Assembly (NCBI GenBank): GCA_025998875.1
Contig: AP024675.1
Location: 1 to 64,000 of the forward strand
Origin: Bacteroidota bacterium
GTDB taxonomy: Bacteria; Bacteroidota; Rhodothermia; JANXDC01
Reading direction: 5' to 3'
DNA: 64,000 bases
The position numbers and the translations under genes were made by a program. Position 1 is the first letter of the stretch; every line of letters starts with the position of its first letter. The notes below the pieces were generated by a model, which ran no database searches, was not told where the DNA came from, and saw only the letters and a list, made by a program, of their open reading frames with translations. This document shows, piece after piece, positions 23,250 through 33,366 of the stretch.

Positions 23250-24875
<1,626 letters not shown>

Positions 24876-24903
24876 TTATCCTCCTTCTTTTTTTGTTTTT
24901 TTC

Positions 24904-25212
24904 TTACTTCTCGATGATACCGAAGATATCCGATTCGCGCATGATCAGATACTCTTCCCCGTCGATCGTGACCTCGGTGCCGGCGTATTTGCCATAGAGC
25001 ACCTCATCGCCCACCTTGACCGTCATCTCGATCTTGACCCCGTTTTCGATCTTGCCGGGCCCGACAGCCACGACCGTACCCCGCTGGGGTTTCTCCTTGG
25101 CCGTATCCGGGATCACAAGCCCGCTCTTGGTCACCTCCTCCGGAGGAGCCGGCTTGACGATGACCCGATCAGCGAGTGGACGAATGGCGATCTTCTCCGC
25201 AACGGCAGCCAT
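24904..25212 (-). CDS. groES: Co-chaperonin GroES
   Basis: A 102-residue Hsp10 with [17 protein letters not shown], the mobile-loop region [18 protein letters not shown], and [23 protein letters not shown]. It caps the GroEL ring. The ATG at 25212 has AAGGAGGG 8 nt upstream; the open frame continues 11 codons upstream without support. Upstream there is no CIRCE element (TTAGCACTC-N9-GAGTGCTAA), so HrcA control is not indicated. Confidence 0.96.
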
Positions 25213-25331
25213 ATGTGTACCCTCCTTTTTGGTGTTTGTATTCACCTTCGCTTGCGGGACGCCGTGCCATTTAGTAAAAAACGTGCCAGATCCCCCTGGC
25301 CTGCCGGATTTGGCAGAGCTCTACCGAAATT

Positions 25332-25554: not shown

Positions 25555-26556
25555 TCAGGGAATCCACACCACCCCGTCCGGTTCCGGTCCCGTCCGGTAG
25601 CTGGCGATCAGGCGCAGGGCGATCAGATCCAGCACATGGATGCGGTCGGCGTAGCTGGCCGCCACGAGGGCGTATCGGCCCTCGGGGGAGGGCGCGATAC
25701 CGATCGGCACCGGGCTGCGCCCGAAGCGGGAGCCGAAGAGGCGATCTTCCGGCACATCGGCTTCCGGAGGGGGAATCGGAATCCGGCCCAGCAGGCGACG
25801 GGAGGCGGCCTCGAAAACGGCCACATCCCCGCTTGCGGCGCAGGAGACGAGCGCCAGCGTTCCGTCAGGGGTAAAGGCAACCCGTATCGGAAAGGCCGGG
25901 CAGGACAGGGAATCGAGCGGGCGCAGGTGCTCGGCATCCAGAATTGTGATCGTGTTGGCCGCGCGGTTGCTCACCCAGAGCTCCCGTGTTCCCGGCCGCA
26001 GGGCGATTCCCTCCGCCCCCGCCCCGGTTGGGATCTGTTGCACCCTTTCTGTATCCAGATCCAGCGCGCTCACAGAGCCGGATCCGATGTTGGCCGTAAA
26101 GGCGCGCCTTCCCTCCGGCCAGGCGACCACCATGTGCGAGACCCGGGCTTCCGTGGGCAGTGCCTTCTGGATCCGGCCCTCCTGGAGAGAGAGGACAAGC
26201 AACCGGGCCTGCGCTTCGGCCGTCACCAGCACCGTGTCCCCTCGCCACCAGGCCAGCCCATGGGGTCGGCTGTAGGAGCCGAGGGGAACGTAGCGAACCG
26301 GCTCCCTCCCCTCCAGATCCAGCACCGCCAGCGCCGATCCCGGCCGCGTGGACGTGCCGTAGAGGGAAACCACGGCCCGACGTCCATCCGGGGAGAGGAG
26401 CACCTCATGCGGTCCTTCGCCCACGATCCAGCGCGCCTCCAGGGCGCCTGTGCGCAGGTTGATCTTCCAGACCGTGCCGTCGGACTTGTTGAGCACCAGG
26501 GCTGAACCGGAAGGCTCCTGCAGAAGGAGCAGGGCGGCCAGCAACGGGATCCCCAT
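25555..26556 (-). CDS. YncE-like beta-propeller protein, exported
   Basis: A 333-residue protein with a short hydrophobic leader (MGIPLLAALLLLQEPSGS) and about seven repeated blades of the surface-layer/YncE type, for example VLNKSDGTVWKINLRTG, VLLSPDGRRAVVS, VSNRAANTITILD and VAFTPDGTLALVS. Such propellers bind ligands or proteins in the periplasm or at the surface; no enzyme motif is visible. An AGGAGAAG site precedes the ATG. It lies downstream of the TonB receptor on the same strand, separated by a terminator, so it is probably expressed separately. Confidence 0.8.
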   Translation of the reverse strand: MGIPLLAALLLLQEPSGSALVLNKSDGTVWKINLRTGALEARWIVGEGPHEVLLSPDGRRAVVSLYGTSTRPGSALAVLDLEGREPVRYVPLGSYSRPHGLAWWRGDTVLVTAEAQARLLVLSLQEGRIQKALPTEARVSHMVVAWPEGRRAFTANIGSGSVSALDLDTERVQQIPTGAGAEGIALRPGTRELWVSNRAANTITILDAEHLRPLDSLSCPAFPIRVAFTPDGTLALVSCAASGDVAVFEAASRRLLGRIPIPPPEADVPEDRLFGSRFGRSPVPIGIAPSPEGRYALVAASYADRIHVLDLIALRLIASYRTGPEPDGVVWIP

Positions 26557-26644: not shown

Positions 26645-29305
26645 TCAAGGCAGCACGTACGTCAGCCGGCCCGTGATGAGGCGCCCGATCTTGGGCGCGC
26701 CGATGTACTGTCGATGTCGGTGATCGAGCACGTTCTGCACAAGGACGTCGAGCCGCAGTCCGGGAAGGAGACCCTTCAGGTCATACCCTGCCCCCAGGTC
26801 CAGGAGGAAGTAGCTGTCCACGCGGCCAGAAAAGATTCCGGAGCGCACCTCGAAGGCATCCACGTACTGGGAAGCCACATTCAGGGACCAGCCCGCCGGC
26901 GCTGTGTAGTCCACCCCGGCCCGGACTTTCCATTGGGGTGCGTTCATGGAGACCTCACGCCCCGTTCCGGGTTCACCGAGCTCCTGATCGTCGAAATACG
27001 TATCGCTGAGCCAGGACAGGTTCCCCCACAGGCTCCAGTTCGGGTTTGGGAACCACTGCAGGGCCAGATCCGCCCCGTAGTAGGAGACGCGCCCGAAGGT
27101 AATGTAGCTGAGCAGAAGCTCGGGTTTACGATTCGGGTCGAAGTTCTCCTGCGGCTCGATGAGCCCGATGGGGTTGGCCGCGATCTGCGAGGCCGCCTGC
27201 CGATAGATGGCCGCCAGCTGGGCGCGCGTCAGGCCATAGCGCTGTAGCTCCGCATCGGTAAAGGCGGCTGCCACGGCGTTGGCCAGATCATCCGGCAACC
27301 GGGGCACGACGACAAGCGGGGTAAAGGGCTGAAGCTCGCTCAGGAAATTGCGTTTGCGCGTGTAGTAAAAGTCCAGATTTACGGCTAGCCGATTGAAGAA
27401 AATCCCCTTGTAGCCCAGCTCCCAGCTGTTGGTGATCGTCTGCCGGGCCTGGGGAACTGGCTCCAGCCGGGTTATAGGCCGACCCTGCACATCGATCATG
27501 GCGCCGGCGGAAAAGCCCCCGATCTGCTGCGCCTTGCTCAGCAGCAGGGCCCGAAGCGGGGCCAGCGGTTGACCGGAGGCCGTAATGACGTTCGTCACGG
27601 CCGCGTAGGCGATCTGGATCGGGATCCCGATACCGGGCCAGCTGCGCACGCCGGGGATAAAGCTCGAGGTCTGAGGTTGGGCGGCAAACGTCCAGCCATC
27701 CACCGTCCCCACACCCCGCACCCCGAAGGGTCCGCGATCTTCGATGAAGAGGTCGATGAAGAAGTTGATTCCGGCCGGGGTGGTGAAGGCCCGGTTGTAG
27801 GTGGCCCGCAGACTGTGGCTCGGAGAGGGCTTGTAGACCAGCCCCAGACGCGGGGAGAACTGCACCTTCCGGATCACGTTATCCCGATCCAGTCGGCCGG
27901 TCAAGAGCACATCCAGCGTGGGAAAGAGCGCGGTCTGGGACTGCAGATAGCCGCCGATCTCCGTCATGTTATCCCGACCCTCGAAGCGGCCGTGGATCGT
28001 GCCCCCTGTTCGAGGCACGGTGCGCCGGTAATCGAGCCCGAGCACAAACTGCTGGCGATCGCCCCACAGGGACCAGCTGTACTGGGCCTGTCCGGACATC
28101 AGGAAGGAACGTTCGACGACCTCGATGGGGCTGCGGTAGAAGTGCGTCTTGCCCCCGTCGTTGACCGTGTAGAAGAACTGCCCGAAGAAGCCGCCTGCGC
28201 GCAACCGGAGCTGGGCATAGGTGGTGGCGAAATCCTTGACCGCGTTTTCCCCCGTGTTGGCCAGCACGGTCTGCCGGAAGATCGAATATCCGGCCGAACC
28301 CGTGAGCATCGCCTCCGAGCCCAGGCGATACTGCACCGTGGCGCTCGCATATCCGTTGTAGGTCGTATAATCACGGCTTCCCCATTTCGGGTGGATGGCG
28401 TTGAGCAAGGCCCTGTCGTGCGGATCGTTGGGATCCAGCTTCCAGTCCTGGCCCCGACTGTACTGGCCCACGAGCTTGTAGGCCAGGCGGTTGTGCACCA
28501 CAGCCGCATGCCGCAGGGCGCCCTGGAAGATGGAGCGCTGGCCTCCGCCGACCATGAGCGAGGTGCCCGGATAGGAGAAGGGGTCCTTGGTGATGAAGTG
28601 AATGACCCCCTGCTCGACGCCCGCCCCGTAGAGGGCCGATCCGGGACCGCGCACCACTTCGATGCGCGCGATGTCCAGAGGCGAGATGGGCATGGCAGAA
28701 AACTCGTTGATCCCCAGACTCGGCGTGGTCGCCTGCCGGTAGTCGACCAGCGCATAGGTCTTGGCCACAAAAACCGTATTGAACCCCCGCAGGGAGATCT
28801 GGTAGCGGTTCAGGGCCGACTGGGAGACGTCCACGCCGGGCACGGTGCGCAGCACGGCGGCGGTATGAGGGACAGCACTGCGCTCCAGATCCCGGGCTTC
28901 GAGAACCGAGATAGACATGGGGGCTTCGAGGACTTTCTCCGGACGCCGGGAGCCTGTAACCACCACGGGGTTGAGGAGCAACGCCGTCGCCCGCAAGGTG
29001 AGCTCCACATTGAGCACCTCCCCTGAGGAAAGGCTCACGGTACGCTCAGCCTCCTCATAGCCCACAAAACGCGCCACCAGACGGTATGTGCCGGCCGGAA
29101 CCTGCAGACGATATCGCCCCAGAAGGTCGGTTGCGCTGCCGGCCACCGGGTTTTGCTCTCCCGGACGTAGAAGCAGCACGTTGGCCCCTGGCAGGGGCTC
29201 TCCCGTACTGGCGTCCAGCACGCGTCCCTGCAGGGTGGCTTGCTGGGCGAGCGCGGAAGGCAAAATCCCCAGCCACCAAACGGACAGTAAGGCAATCAGG
29301 CGCAT
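26645..29305 (-). CDS. TonB-dependent receptor with carboxypeptidase-regulatory-like N-terminal domain
   Basis: An 886-residue outer-membrane receptor. It has a signal peptide (LIALLSVWWLGILPSALAQ) and then a CarboxypepD_reg-like domain (LQGRVLDASTGEPLPGANVLL) typical of Bacteroidota. The plug domain contains VVVTGSRRPEKVLEAPMSI, and the large beta-barrel contains VVRGPGSALYGAGVEQGVIHF. It should import a scarce ligand (siderophore, cobalamin, peptide or oligosaccharide) using TonB energy; the ligand is not readable, and no SusD partner is next to it. The ATG at 29305 has GGAGGAGG 7 nt upstream; the 29 codons upstream in the open frame have no support. Confidence 0.93.
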   Translation of the reverse strand: MRLIALLSVWWLGILPSALAQQATLQGRVLDASTGEPLPGANVLLLRPGEQNPVAGSATDLLGRYRLQVPAGTYRLVARFVGYEEAERTVSLSSGEVLNVELTLRATALLLNPVVVTGSRRPEKVLEAPMSISVLEARDLERSAVPHTAAVLRTVPGVDVSQSALNRYQISLRGFNTVFVAKTYALVDYRQATTPSLGINEFSAMPISPLDIARIEVVRGPGSALYGAGVEQGVIHFITKDPFSYPGTSLMVGGGQRSIFQGALRHAAVVHNRLAYKLVGQYSRGQDWKLDPNDPHDRALLNAIHPKWGSRDYTTYNGYASATVQYRLGSEAMLTGSAGYSIFRQTVLANTGENAVKDFATTYAQLRLRAGGFFGQFFYTVNDGGKTHFYRSPIEVVERSFLMSGQAQYSWSLWGDRQQFVLGLDYRRTVPRTGGTIHGRFEGRDNMTEIGGYLQSQTALFPTLDVLLTGRLDRDNVIRKVQFSPRLGLVYKPSPSHSLRATYNRAFTTPAGINFFIDLFIEDRGPFGVRGVGTVDGWTFAAQPQTSSFIPGVRSWPGIGIPIQIAYAAVTNVITASGQPLAPLRALLLSKAQQIGGFSAGAMIDVQGRPITRLEPVPQARQTITNSWELGYKGIFFNRLAVNLDFYYTRKRNFLSELQPFTPLVVVPRLPDDLANAVAAAFTDAELQRYGLTRAQLAAIYRQAASQIAANPIGLIEPQENFDPNRKPELLLSYITFGRVSYYGADLALQWFPNPNWSLWGNLSWLSDTYFDDQELGEPGTGREVSMNAPQWKVRAGVDYTAPAGWSLNVASQYVDAFEVRSGIFSGRVDSYFLLDLGAGYDLKGLLPGLRLDVLVQNVLDHRHRQYIGAPKIGRLITGRLTYVLP

Positions 29306-29391
29306 ACGTACCTCCTCCGCATGTCTGATTTTTTGTGGAAGAAAGGCGGAAACATGCCTCCGCCAGACAACCTCCTCCAACAGAGACGGCA

Positions 29392-29422
29392 AAATAATAC
29401 ATCACCTGGGCTCAGCGTGCAA
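29392..29422 (-). promoter_or_regulatory. Promoter of the TonB-dependent receptor
   Basis: TTGCAC, 17 nt, then TATTATTTTG on the minus strand. It begins inside the last codons of the HAD-like gene and is about 90 nt before the receptor start. Confidence 0.55.
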
Positions 29423-30254
29423 GTCCTTTCGGATACCCACCGTGGAGACGCAGTCGGACCTCCAGCCACCTGCGGGCTTCCTCAAGCCGGGCCCTATAGG
29501 CTATCGGGGCCGCTGCGGGATCCCGAGCGAGCTCGGGCACGCCAAAGGCGAATCCCTCAACCGGCACGCGCCAGCTCTGCGCGATGGCCTCCAGCATGCG
29601 TTGTTGTCGCCTCTGGGCCTCCCGGGTGTATGGGTCCTCGGCCCGCTCGTTGGCCCCGAAGTCGTCGATGACCCAGACGCGGGCCGGCCGATCAGGCAGC
29701 AACCGGCGCAAACGGGCCCAGAAGCGGGGCGAATCCTTGGGGGCACCCAGATCGGCGGAGTTGGCCAGCCGAATCACATTCCTAGCTTCGGCAACGGCGG
29801 GGGAGGCCTGTGGACGCAGAACCTCTACCCCGTACCCCCAGGCCTGTAGATGACGGGCAAAGGCCTCCGTGGCCTCCGCATAATGATCGGTGGCCACAAG
29901 CAGGCGCACCGCATGGTGCAACAGCAGATCCAGTATCGATTTCCAGCCCGCATCGGGGGCCGAGGCCTCCAGATACATCTGCACAAAGCGCCGAGCCGCT
30001 TCCAGATACCCCTCCTCTGCTTCCTTGCCCTCCCGACGGGCCAGTTGCCGGGCGATCAGCCGGGCGTAGCCGATCGAGGTGGTGCTGCCCTCCGGCCAGG
30101 TGGGCACGACCACCTCGGCCCAGAAGCGCTCCGGATCCTGCAGGGGCAGGCCCGCCTCCTGCAGGGCGCGCCGAAGCGTTTCCGGCTCTCCGAAGGCCAC
30201 AGCTCCGGGACTGAGCGTGCCGGACCAATCGAGGACCACCCATACAGCACGCAT
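29412..30254 (-). CDS. HAD-like hydrolase with DWSGT motif, last gene of the thiamine salvage operon
   Basis: A 280-residue protein. The first strand reads VVLDWSGTL: nucleophile Asp9 is followed by Ser11 where HAD phosphatases have a second Asp. Motif II is ATDHYAE (Thr122), a candidate motif III lysine is Lys173 in APKDSP, and motif IV is VIDDFGANE (Asp197, Asp198). A helical cap lies between residues 20 and 110. Phosphonoacetaldehyde hydrolases (DWAGT) and haloacid dehalogenases also replace the second Asp, so this may not be a plain phosphatase. The start is 6 nt after the tenA stop, with GAGGAG ahead of the ATG. By context it should act on a thiamine precursor, phosphate ester or breakdown product. 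Function unproven. Confidence 0.75.
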   Translation of the reverse strand: MRAVWVVLDWSGTLSPGAVAFGEPETLRRALQEAGLPLQDPERFWAEVVVPTWPEGSTTSIGYARLIARQLARREGKEAEEGYLEAARRFVQMYLEASAPDAGWKSILDLLLHHAVRLLVATDHYAEATEAFARHLQAWGYGVEVLRPQASPAVAEARNVIRLANSADLGAPKDSPRFWARLRRLLPDRPARVWVIDDFGANERAEDPYTREAQRRQQRMLEAIAQSWRVPVEGFAFGVPELARDPAAAPIAYRARLEEARRWLEVRLRLHGGYPKGLAR

Positions 30255-30260
30255 GGCTCC

Positions 30261-30914
30261 TCAGGGAGGCCAACGCTCCAATCGATAGGCGCTATCCCAG
30301 AACATCCACTCCAGGCGGGAGCTCAGCACGAAAGCCTCCCGCATCAGAGCGCGCCCCTCCTCGGAGGTCGATTCAGAACAGCGCTCCGTGAGCGCGATGG
30401 CCCGATCGACCCAGACGGAGAATTCCTCGCTGGCATAGGTATCGATCCAGCGCTGGTACGGGTTCCCCGCAGAAGCATGCCGGTAGATGTAGCGGCCCAC
30501 CTCCCGATAAATCCAGAAACAGGGAAGCAGGGCAGCCATGCCTTCTTCGAAGCTGCGGCAGGAGACGGTGGCCAACAGGAAATTCGTGTACGCAAAACAG
30601 GCCGGCGCCTGCACCCGGGTCGGGGTGCTTAAGCCGAATTCCTGAAAATAGGCTTCGTGCAGCGCGCGCTCGACGCGCACCGCTCCCTCAGCGAACTGAA
30701 CAAATTGCAGCACCTCCTCGGTCCGGCGCGCCCGGGCGGCCATCAGGGCGAGCGCACGACCAAAATCGGCCAGGTACAGGGCATCCTGCTGCAGGTAGAA
30801 TAAAAACCGCTCCCGGTCCAACGTGCCCCGCATGAGTTCCTGATTGAACGGATGGGCCAGAATGGCCTCATAGATGGGGCTTATCTCTCGCCAGAGCACC
30901 TCGGTAAAGCGCAT
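30261..30914 (-). CDS. tenA: TenA family aminopyrimidine aminohydrolase (thiaminase II)
   Basis: A 217-residue all-helical TenA. The catalytic Cys is in ALLPCFWIYREVG (Cys132), and the C-terminal Glu in SSRLEWMFWDSAY (Glu202) matches the family's acid residue. This is the Cys-containing TenA class, which hydrolyses aminomethyl-pyrimidine products of degraded thiamine to HMP so that ThiD can reuse it. The ATG at 30914 has GGAG/AGGAAG upstream and lies 5 nt past the thiD stop; the 18 codons upstream in frame overlap thiD and are not used. Confidence 0.93.
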   Translation of the reverse strand: MRFTEVLWREISPIYEAILAHPFNQELMRGTLDRERFLFYLQQDALYLADFGRALALMAARARRTEEVLQFVQFAEGAVRVERALHEAYFQEFGLSTPTRVQAPACFAYTNFLLATVSCRSFEEGMAALLPCFWIYREVGRYIYRHASAGNPYQRWIDTYASEEFSVWVDRAIALTERCSESTSEEGRALMREAFVLSSRLEWMFWDSAYRLERWPP

Positions 30915-30918
30915 CTTC

Positions 30919-31728
30919 CTACTCCCAGTAGCGGTAAAAGTGATGCACAGGCCCGTGTCCGGAGCCAAGCTGATAGTCAGCCCCGGCGCGCAGGGCTTCG
31001 CTCAGATAGCGTTTGGCCGCCTCTACAGCGTCCGGAATCGAAAAACCTCGAGCCAGATAGGCGGCGATGGCCGAGGAGAGGGTACAGCCCGTGCCGTGCG
31101 TGTTGCGCGTCGGGATGCGTTCGGCCTCCAGCCAGATCGGCTCCGGATGCGCGCGCCACAGCAGCACGTCCGGGCTTCGCGATCCGCCCAGATGGCCCCC
31201 TTTGAGCAAGACGGCCTCCGGACCCAGCTCCAGAAGCTCGCGCGCCGCACGGGGCATATCCTCCTCCGAACGGATCTCCCAGCCGAGCAATACGCCGGCC
31301 TCGGGCAGATTCGGGGTGATCACCGTAGCCAGCGGTAGCAGAGCGGTTCGCAGTGCCCGCACGGCCTCCGGCTCCAGAAGCCGGTCTCCGGACTTGGCCA
31401 CCATGACGGGATCGAGCACCACGGGACCGGCCGCGTAACGACGCAACTGCTCGGCCACGGTGCCGATCACCGGCGCCGTGTGCAACATGCCGATTTTGAC
31501 CGCATCAACCCCGATATCCTCCAGCACGGCTTCCAGCTGGGCCGCCACGAAATCCGGCGGCACAGGATAGACGGCACAAACCTGGCGCGTGTTCTGGGCG
31601 GTGAGCGCGGTGAGCACACTCATCCCATAGCAGCCCAGCGCGGAGAAGGTCTTCAGGTCCGCCTGTATACCGGCCCCCCCACCGGAATCGGAGCCGGCGA
31701 TGGTCAGCACCCGCACATAGCGCTTCAT
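30919..31728 (-). CDS. thiD: Hydroxymethylpyrimidine/phosphomethylpyrimidine kinase
   Basis: A 269-residue ribokinase-like enzyme with the HMP-binding start TIAGSDSGGGAGIQADLKTF, the conserved DPVMVAKSGDRLL, and the ATP/anion-hole motif NTHGTGCTLSSAIAA. It phosphorylates HMP twice to HMP-PP for ThiE. Its start overlaps the thiE stop by 4 nt, so the genes are translationally coupled. There is no fused ThiE or ThiN domain, so it is the simple single-domain form. Confidence 0.95.
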   Translation of the reverse strand: MKRYVRVLTIAGSDSGGGAGIQADLKTFSALGCYGMSVLTALTAQNTRQVCAVYPVPPDFVAAQLEAVLEDIGVDAVKIGMLHTAPVIGTVAEQLRRYAAGPVVLDPVMVAKSGDRLLEPEAVRALRTALLPLATVITPNLPEAGVLLGWEIRSEEDMPRAARELLELGPEAVLLKGGHLGGSRSPDVLLWRAHPEPIWLEAERIPTRNTHGTGCTLSSAIAAYLARGFSIPDAVEAAKRYLSEALRAGADYQLGSGHGPVHHFYRYWE

Positions 31729-32363
31729 CGGTCCTGATCTCCGCTTTCGAACCGGTCGATTTCCTTCCGAAGAAGGCCTGCGGCCTCTTCGGGATCCGGA
31801 GCGGCGCAGATAGCCGAGACCACGGCTATGCCATGGGCACCGGCTTCAAGCACCTGGCGCACGTTGTGCGGACCGATACCGCCGATGGCCACCAGCTTGT
31901 GTCGGGATCGCCTTCTAGCTTCTCGGAGCCCTTCCAACCCCCAGGCCCCCCGCGTATCCGGTTTGGTCGGAGTCGGAAAGACCGGGCTGATGCCCAGATA
32001 ATCCACATCATAGGCCTCGGCCTCCTGGAGCTCCTCCAGGGTTTCCACCGAGAGCCCGATGATGGCTTTCGGACCCAGAAGCCGGCGCGCGATGGGATAC
32101 GGCATATCCTGCTGGCCGATGTGCACCCCGTCGGCTCCGACGGCCAGGGCGACATCGACCCGATCGTTGATGATCAGCGGCACCCCGAGGGGTCGGAGCC
32201 GCTCCAGCAGCCTCCGGGCCAAATCGATAAACTCCCGCGTACTGGCCTCTTTTTCGCGCAACTGCACCATCGTCACCCCGCCCCGCACGGCTCCGAGCAC
32301 CACCTCCTCAAGCGACCTGTCCCCGATAAGCCCGCGATCCGTGACCAGATACAGCCAGGCCAT
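31725..32363 (-). CDS. thiE: Thiamine-phosphate synthase
   Basis: A 212-residue TIM barrel. It starts LYLVTDRGLIG and has GGVTMVQLREKEAS, INDRVDVALAVGADGVHIGQQDM, PVFPTPTKPD and AIGGIGPHNV, all standard ThiE active-site loops binding HMP-PP and thiazole phosphate. It couples the two moieties to thiamine phosphate. The ATG at 32363 is chosen because the protein then begins at the family's first strand and GGAG lies upstream; an open extension of 20 codons runs back into thiM. Confidence 0.95.
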   Translation of the reverse strand: MAWLYLVTDRGLIGDRSLEEVVLGAVRGGVTMVQLREKEASTREFIDLARRLLERLRPLGVPLIINDRVDVALAVGADGVHIGQQDMPYPIARRLLGPKAIIGLSVETLEELQEAEAYDVDYLGISPVFPTPTKPDTRGAWGLEGLREARRRSRHKLVAIGGIGPHNVRQVLEAGAHGIAVVSAICAAPDPEEAAGLLRKEIDRFESGDQDR

Positions 32364-32367
32364 AGGC

Positions 32368-33168
32368 CTACTCCATACACAGACGGGCGCGCACATCGGA
32401 TTGCGAAAGCCTGTAGAGGGCATCTAGAAAACGCATCTGGAGGCTACCTGGCCCCTCTGCCCGCTCCGCTGCCAGCTCCCCCGCTATCCCCATAACAGCC
32501 ATCGCGTGCGCCGTGGCCTGTCCCGGATCCGGATTAACGGCCAGAAAGGCGCCGCAGAGCGCCGTGGCCGTGCACCCCATGCCCGTCACCCGGGCCATAA
32601 GGGGATGGCCGTTGCGGACAGTCCAGATCCGATCCCCCTGGGCCACGTAATCGGTCTGCCCGCTTACACAGACGACGCAGTCCAGCTCCCCGGAAAGGGC
32701 ACGGGCCAGATCCAGCGCCTCTTCCGAGGCGATCGTACTATCCACCCCCCGAGTGCGCACCATGGCCCCGGCGAGAGCGGCTATCTCGGAGGCGTTTCCC
32801 CGGATCACGGCGGGTGTGGCGACCCGAAGCAGGGCGCGCACGGTTTCCGTCCGATATCGCGTAGCCCCCGCGCCCACGGGATCCAGTACGATCGGAATGC
32901 TTCGTTCTGCGGCGCGCCGCATGGCGCGCTCCATGGCCCGCACCCAGTGTGGGCTGAGCGTGCCGATGTTGACCACCAGCGCCGCGGCCAGATCCACCAT
33001 GGCCTCTACCTCTTCCTCGGCGTGGGCCATCACCGGGGAGGCGCCGATGGCCAAGAGCGCATTGGCTGTGGTGTTCATGACCACGTAATTGGTGATGTTG
33101 TGCACCAGCGGATTGCGGGCTCGAATGGCCTCTACATCGGCCCAGAGTGCGCTTACCGGATCTCCCAT
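32368..33168 (-). CDS. thiM: Hydroxyethylthiazole kinase
   Basis: A 266-residue ribokinase-fold enzyme: NPLVHNITNYVVMNTTANALLAIGASPVM at the start, LDPVGAGATRYRTET, RGNASEIAALAG, and VTGMGCTATALCGAFLAV with the active-site Cys of ThiM. It salvages the thiazole alcohol by phosphorylation. It is the first gene behind the TPP riboswitch, 70 nt from the terminator hairpin, and leads thiE-thiD-tenA-HAD. Confidence 0.95.
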   Translation of the reverse strand: MGDPVSALWADVEAIRARNPLVHNITNYVVMNTTANALLAIGASPVMAHAEEEVEAMVDLAAALVVNIGTLSPHWVRAMERAMRRAAERSIPIVLDPVGAGATRYRTETVRALLRVATPAVIRGNASEIAALAGAMVRTRGVDSTIASEEALDLARALSGELDCVVCVSGQTDYVAQGDRIWTVRNGHPLMARVTGMGCTATALCGAFLAVNPDPGQATAHAMAVMGIAGELAAERAEGPGSLQMRFLDALYRLSQSDVRARLCME

Positions 33169-33238: not shown

Positions 33239-33270
33239 AAAAAACCGGAGGCAGCAGATGGCTTCCGGTT
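33239..33270 (-). terminator. Terminator in the TPP riboswitch expression platform
   Basis: On the minus strand AACCGGA pairs with TCCGGTT over a 14-nt loop, followed by TTTTTT. It lies between the aptamer and thiM; its first four bases are also the end of aptamer stem P1. Confidence 0.75.
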
Positions 33271-33360
33271 CCGTATTCCCTTCGCCGGTATTACCCGGAT
33301 CAGGTTCTAAGGGTATCCTCTCAGCCCCGCCCACAGGAACGGAGCACCCCCAACGGAACC
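33267..33360 (-). ncRNA. TPP (THI-box) riboswitch aptamer upstream of thiM
   Basis: Minus-strand RNA with all TPP aptamer signatures in order: P1 arms GGTTCCGT/ACGGAACC, the GGGGGTGC turn, GGGGCTGAGAGGATACCC (pyrimidine sensor), AGAACCTGATCCGGGTAA, and TACCGGCGAAGGGAA (pyrophosphate sensor). It senses thiamine diphosphate and controls thiM-thiE-thiD-tenA and the HAD-like gene. Confidence 0.95.
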
Positions 33361-33366
33361 CGCTCG

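Follow-up and report, generated by a model that had tools for sequence, protein, structure and literature searches.

The HAD gene of a thiamine operon in the window (the whole 64,000-nucleotide stretch of DNA analysed) probably encodes a C1-capped enzyme that hydrolyses thiamine monophosphate (ThMP) to supply thiamine pyrophosphokinase (TPK), with its general acid relocated from the usual position. ThMP is the likely substrate because, in relatives, TPK is present, ThiL is absent and the HAD gene lies in the same operon. More broadly, we propose an undescribed HAD family, outside the Pfam and NCBIfam models, that hydrolyses ThMP through an aspartyl-phosphate despite an invariant Ser, its acid having moved to a DHYAE loop or to the cap, and that in Syntrophia and part of the Bacillota has taken the place of ThiL and was exchanged, operon included, with the window's genus; to this whole proposition we give even chances.

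The 280-residue protein (ATG start, beginning MRAVWVVLDWSGTLS...) is encoded on the minus strand, and the plus-strand frame at the same positions is interrupted by a stop (Table 1). An earlier sequence-only reading had described this open reading frame without its strand and had read D9-W-S-G-T, T122, K173 and D197-D198 in its product; all are found. The gene order is thiM-thiE-thiD-tenA-HAD, with overlaps, counted from the longest ORF starts, of 56 nt (thiM/thiE), 4 nt (thiE/thiD) and 50 nt (thiD/tenA), and profile and riboswitch matches bear out the placement of the HAD gene 6 nt behind tenA in a TPP-riboswitch operon. That it is the last gene, as was also supposed, is uncertain. The next gene on that strand, for a TonB-dependent receptor, begins 19 nt away if its longest ORF is taken, the pair is preserved in the sister species, and the weak terminator-like hairpin between the two is not, alone, evidence of a transcript end; the receptor is possibly co-transcribed with the HAD gene. 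Further downstream on the minus strand lies a gene for a YncE-like beta-propeller protein (25555-26556), and a role of the receptor and this protein in uptake of thiamine or a precursor is possible. Neighbouring minus-strand ORFs at 23250-25245 read as GroEL and GroES by sequence appearance, an ordinary pair.

Table 1. Features of the thiamine operon and the HAD gene, in window positions
Feature	Position	Strand	Basis
HAD-fold protein of the D9-x-S-G-T family, predicted ThMP phosphatase	29412..30254	-	ORF, family alignment, AlphaFold2, Foldseek
HAD motif I codons, D9-W-S-G-T13; D9 nucleophile, S11 replacing the general acid/base Asp	30216..30230	-	homologues
A121-T-D-H-Y-A-E-A-T-E130 codons; motif II Thr122 and acid/base candidates D123, H124, E127	29865..29894	-	alignment
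Lys173 codon, HAD motif III position, core domain	29736..29738	-	48/48 homologues; after third core strand in model
Motif IV and neighbours codons, I196-D-D-F-G-A-N-E203	29646..29669	-	homologue alignment
tenA (aminopyrimidine aminohydrolase / thiaminase II)	30261..30968	-	TIGR04306, 157 bits, cut-off 130
thiD (HMP/HMP-P kinase)	30919..31728	-	TIGR00097, 357 bits
thiE (thiamine phosphate synthase)	31725..32423	-	TIGR00693, 218 bits
thiM (hydroxyethylthiazole kinase)	32368..33168	-	TIGR00694, 294 bits
TPP riboswitch aptamer, head of operon	33259..33361	-	RF00059, 70.5 bits, cut-off 54.3
TonB-dependent receptor, directly downstream of the HAD gene	26645..29392	-	Pfam; same adjacency in the sister species (L104)
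Weak hairpin resembling a terminator, between the HAD and TonB receptor genes	29345..29364	-	2 found vs 2.5 expected by chance

The altered motif I is a uniform property of the homologues. Ser occupies the +2 position in all 46 that span the site and the second Asp, which defines DxD-type HAD phosphatases, in none, while the nucleophile Asp9 is kept in 45/46. Motif II Thr122 is found in 47/48 homologues, the remaining one having Ser, and K173, D197 and D198 are each present in 48/48, which satisfies HAD motif III and the acidic pair of motif IV. Additionally, D123, H124, Y125 and E127 after motif II (48/48) and F199, G200 and E203 around motif IV are invariant, and N202 is kept in 47 of the 48. 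Because Ser11, Asp9 and the other motifs are conserved across homologues, the loss of the second Asp is an old family property, not decay. Single copies deviate: the homologue at L088 has Glu for Asp9 (EYSGT), which may be a sequencing error, a dead copy or a variant, and the matches L071, L078 and G443:C25:110539-111315 each contain a single in-frame stop, as possible pseudogenes or match-end artefacts. A catalytically dead HAD relic or a regulatory partner would accommodate the lost general acid/base position, this Glu and these stops in a few copies; with the nucleophile, Thr, Lys and acidic pair 98-100% conserved across divergent homologues, such a reading is scarcely credible.

Single-sequence searches of Pfam and NCBIfam gave sub-threshold HAD matches only, PF00702 among them under its cut-off, and no HAD family model of either collection reached its curated cut-off in these searches for any of the 19 members of the family alignment. 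Likewise, a search of the PDB by sequence yielded no solved-structure relative, PHROGs gave no significant match, plasmid records no match, and nothing in the viral structure library matched at E <= 0.001. The AlphaFold2 model obtained from the family alignment (pLDDT 88, pTM 0.85) combines a Rossmannoid core and a helical C1 cap; the cap helices (16-112) separate motif I from motif II and are flanked by strands 3-9 and 116-122. K173 comes after core strand three, where HAD motif III usually lies. The invariant residues of the cap are rich in aromatics (F21, W45, W53, Y63, F90, Y94 and W104) and include no Lys. The sequence-only reading had hinted at phosphonatase-like chemistry and had turned to structure prediction for Lys173; the prediction puts this residue at the motif III position of the core and not where a phosphonatase would have it. 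Phosphonatase-like Schiff-base chemistry is thus rejected, as the cap has no invariant Lys and K173 belongs to the core. Phosphonoacetaldehyde hydrolase (DWAGT) does share the HAD fold, the C1 cap and a motif I without the second Asp, but its +2 residue is Ala and its cap supplies a Schiff-base Lys, whereas the window family has Ser at +2.

Foldseek with this model retrieves HAD enzymes (best E 3.4e-4), and these matches place the fold while leaving the chemistry undecided. The nearest are L-2-haloacid dehalogenases and cis-epoxysuccinate hydrolases, some of which have no Asp at +2, and a dehalogenase- or epoxide-hydrolase-like reaction, in which the Asp nucleophile attacks carbon to cleave, for example, the methylene bridge of thiamine or to hydrolyse a breakdown product, would suit them. 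Yet YfnB and beta-phosphoglucomutase are nearly as close, the TM-scores are only ~0.4-0.5, the family retains T122, K173 and D197/D198, and a degradative enzyme would be hard to explain beside thiC and thi4 in operons for biosynthesis, all of which makes carbon chemistry very unlikely. The two enzyme groups, although they are the nearest solved folds and share the absence of an acid Asp at +2, also have 10-18% identity to the window HAD protein and an unrelated gene context; L-2-haloacid dehalogenases carry an aromatic residue at +2 where the window family has Ser, and no Pfam or NCBIfam model matches the latter above its cut-off.

From 84,980 species genomes, 18 further loci were recovered at 33-40% identity, labelled Deltaproteobacteria/Syntrophales and Syntrophomonadaceae. 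The homologues are mostly from Syntrophia, with some from Bacillota, and their usual place is directly after thiE. Among the 18 loci, thiE is just upstream of the HAD gene in 16 and thiM in 15; L020 starts inside the HAD gene, and L019 has TPK, thiDN, thi4 and thiC in place of thiM and thiE (ThiDN, Thi4, ThiC and TPK were assigned via identified reference proteins). Common neighbours are thiE, thiM, thiC, thiDN and TPK, and several of these clusters are headed by TPP riboswitches. Specifically, L085, L087 and L089 have the order TPK-thiDN-thi4-thiC-thiM-thiE-HAD, L088 has TPK-thiDN-thi4-(tenA)-thiC-HAD, and in L080 to L084 the outer genes TPK, thiD, thiM, thiE and HAD run as in L085, with no query-set match in between. 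Operons such as L085, L087 and L089 encode the full thiamine pathway with TPK, and the sole step left without a gene is ThMP dephosphorylation. A ThiN domain, representing another type of ThMP synthase, is part of the thiDN product of L014. L113 and L114 (TPK-thiDN-thi4-thiC-HAD) keep the HAD gene without thiM and thiE; the gene therefore tracks the making of ThMP rather than ThiM or ThiE themselves.

The homologue search that had been suggested thus ties the family to thiamine genes across phyla. A thiamine precursor or breakdown product had been proposed as substrate, and, with this linkage upheld, the pattern favours ThMP as the predicted one. The link to tenA, by contrast, does not extend to the family: of the loci read, only those of the window's genus and L088 have tenA close to the HAD gene, and tenA is rejected as a general functional partner. 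HAD genes distant from thiamine genes also occur (L110, L111, L115 and L116). As a separate observation, a gene of metallo-beta-lactamase fold directly follows the HAD gene at L018:3817-4821, L012:4610-4924, L020:771-1796, L110:3301-4314 and L111:2919-3986, with Pfam Lactamase_B_2 matched at L018 and L110; this partner persists at L110 and L111, away from thiamine genes.

To place the family against ThiL, we surveyed 149 genomes from the class of G302 (Syntrophia), many of them incomplete MAGs whose counts are not independent by descent. HAD is present in 73/149 and canonical thiL over its cut-off in 10/149, with no overlap (Fisher P = 0.0014); thiL and TPK do not overlap either (P = 6e-8, on counts not independent by descent). 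Of the 73 HAD genomes, 59 have thiE no more than 600 bp from the HAD gene (median gap 69 bp), 17 have TPK no more than 10 kb away, 65 have TPK somewhere in the genome, and none has thiL; the window's genus, by contrast, carries thiL as well as TPK. Two of the thiL genomes have thiL itself next to thiE, as thiM-thiE-thiL (L097) and thiE-thiL-thiM (L096). The exclusion of thiL and HAD and their shared slot beside thiE are the pattern of non-orthologous displacement. In line with this, the 17 genomes behind the first homologues contain no thiL, and 14 have TPK over the cut-off and one more a weak match. HAD would not be the only solution, because 37 surveyed genomes have thiE and TPK without either thiL or HAD; at eight loci judged by eye in such genomes, no phosphatase was evident beside thiE.

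Genetic linkage to thiamine genes would equally fit a HAD phosphatase acting on HMP-P, on thiazole phosphate or on a thiamine phosphate that has been damaged or oxidised, in overflow or damage control, and a ThMP phosphatase is dispensable in the window's genus, where ThiL and TPK are both encoded. Such a substrate would nevertheless leave unexplained why HAD and thiL never occur together in the 149 genomes and why thiL occupies the same slot beside thiE, and the absence of thiM from L113 and L114 means that thiazole salvage is not the common factor. We consider this alternative unlikely, though it deserves some weight.

For ThMP hydrolysis we propose the following course. Asp9 would attack the phosphorus to form an aspartyl-phosphate, which Thr122 and Lys173 would steady; Asp9 and Asp197/198 would bind the Mg2+. 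The invariant Ser11 would occupy the usual +2 site of the general acid/base, and the proton would probably be transferred by D123, H124 or E127, invariant in the loop that follows motif II (D123-H124-Y-A-E127), or by a residue of the cap, whose invariant aromatics may grip the thiazolium and pyrimidine rings. ThMP, made by ThiE or ThiN, would thus be converted by the HAD enzyme to free thiamine and the latter by TPK to thiamine diphosphate, so that HAD would complete the TPK route in relatives without ThiL. The objection to this course is chemical: the thiazole-ethanol is a poor leaving group that normally needs an acid, and the +2 Asp is missing. For this reason a transferase or another substrate keeps some probability. 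In P-type ATPases, whose DKTGT motif also has no Asp at +2, hydrolysis is suppressed. By analogy, the HAD protein might be a phosphotransferase whose long-lived aspartyl-phosphate, formed from ThMP or another donor, gives up its phosphoryl group not to water but to an acceptor, for example hydroxyethylthiazole or HMP, the missing +2 Asp suppressing hydrolysis. Retention of Asp9 next to a constant Ser at +2 and the frequent neighbourhood of thiM and thiD would suit such an enzyme, but the thiM-less operons L113 and L114 also contain HAD and the sequence points to no acceptor, which leaves phosphate transfer quite improbable.

The window's own genome departs from the Syntrophia pattern. It has an intact thiL (267 bits, cut-off 184; C1:2006139-2007128) and TPK (125 bits; C1:1372098-1372694), and the sister species likewise has both. 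The sequence-only reading had held that the gene may replace or supplement ThiL and had named an intact thiL elsewhere, coupled with no activity on thiamine-related substrates, as one outcome against it; the intact thiL is what we found. Replacement of ThiL is thereby ruled out in this genome and retained for the relatives, and because thiL and TPK are both intact here, the predicted ThMP phosphatase would in the window's genus be a second route from ThMP, supplementing ThiL. Two TPP riboswitches were found in the genome, one heading the HAD operon and the other a locus of a TonB-dependent receptor, thiamine pyrophosphokinase and a sodium-solute symporter (L106:400-5164; G000:C1:1369400-1374164), which is probably a thiamine uptake operon. 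Neither riboswitch has thiC under it, which suggests thiamine salvage.

Within the window's phylum, HAD occurs in 2/296 genomes, both of the window's genus, and a wider Bacillota survey found it in 2/398, both already among the known homologues. The tree groups the window and sister sequences with four Bacillota sequences (99/92), two of which (L107 and L109) lie in thiM-thiE-thiD-HAD operons, the window's order minus tenA. Given this grouping and gene order, and the confinement of HAD to one genus among the 296 genomes, the simplest reading is that the operon was gained by horizontal transfer.

Bacterial HAD enzymes that dephosphorylate ThMP, whose genes are either fused to thiamine genes or share operons with them, are on record (Hasnain et al. 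2016, Biochem J 473:157, subfamilies IA and IB; as described in PMC5627462 and PMC4921024). The window family resembles them in thiamine-gene linkage and in its predicted role in the TPK route without ThiL; it appears set apart in being D-x-S throughout, where HAD phosphatases are normally D-x-D. Plant TH2, a TenA fused to a HAD that is a ThMP phosphatase, shares the predicted substrate and, in the window, the tenA neighbour; it differs in that the window HAD is a separate gene and tenA linkage is rare in its family. ThiL (thiamine-monophosphate kinase) acts on the intermediate predicted for HAD, never occurs with HAD in the 149 genomes, and in two of them is encoded in the slot beside thiE, yet it has an unrelated AIRS-family fold and adds a phosphate, whereas the window HAD would remove one. 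Characterised ThMP phosphatases reportedly include enzymes from Syntrophomonas wolfei, Dorea and Anaerotruncus. Literature searches found no precedent for a D-x-S HAD phosphatase. The class of function is thus already known, whereas the altered active site appears to be new.

The phosphatase step ahead of TPK is a long-standing hole in the annotation of the thiamine pathway, and strong genomic logic here assigns to that step a family without a curated model, in Syntrophia, Bacillota and one further genus. If ThMP hydrolysis by this family is true, the rule that a HAD protein that has lost the +2 Asp does not hydrolyse alkyl phosphates, which is widely used in HAD annotation, would fail.
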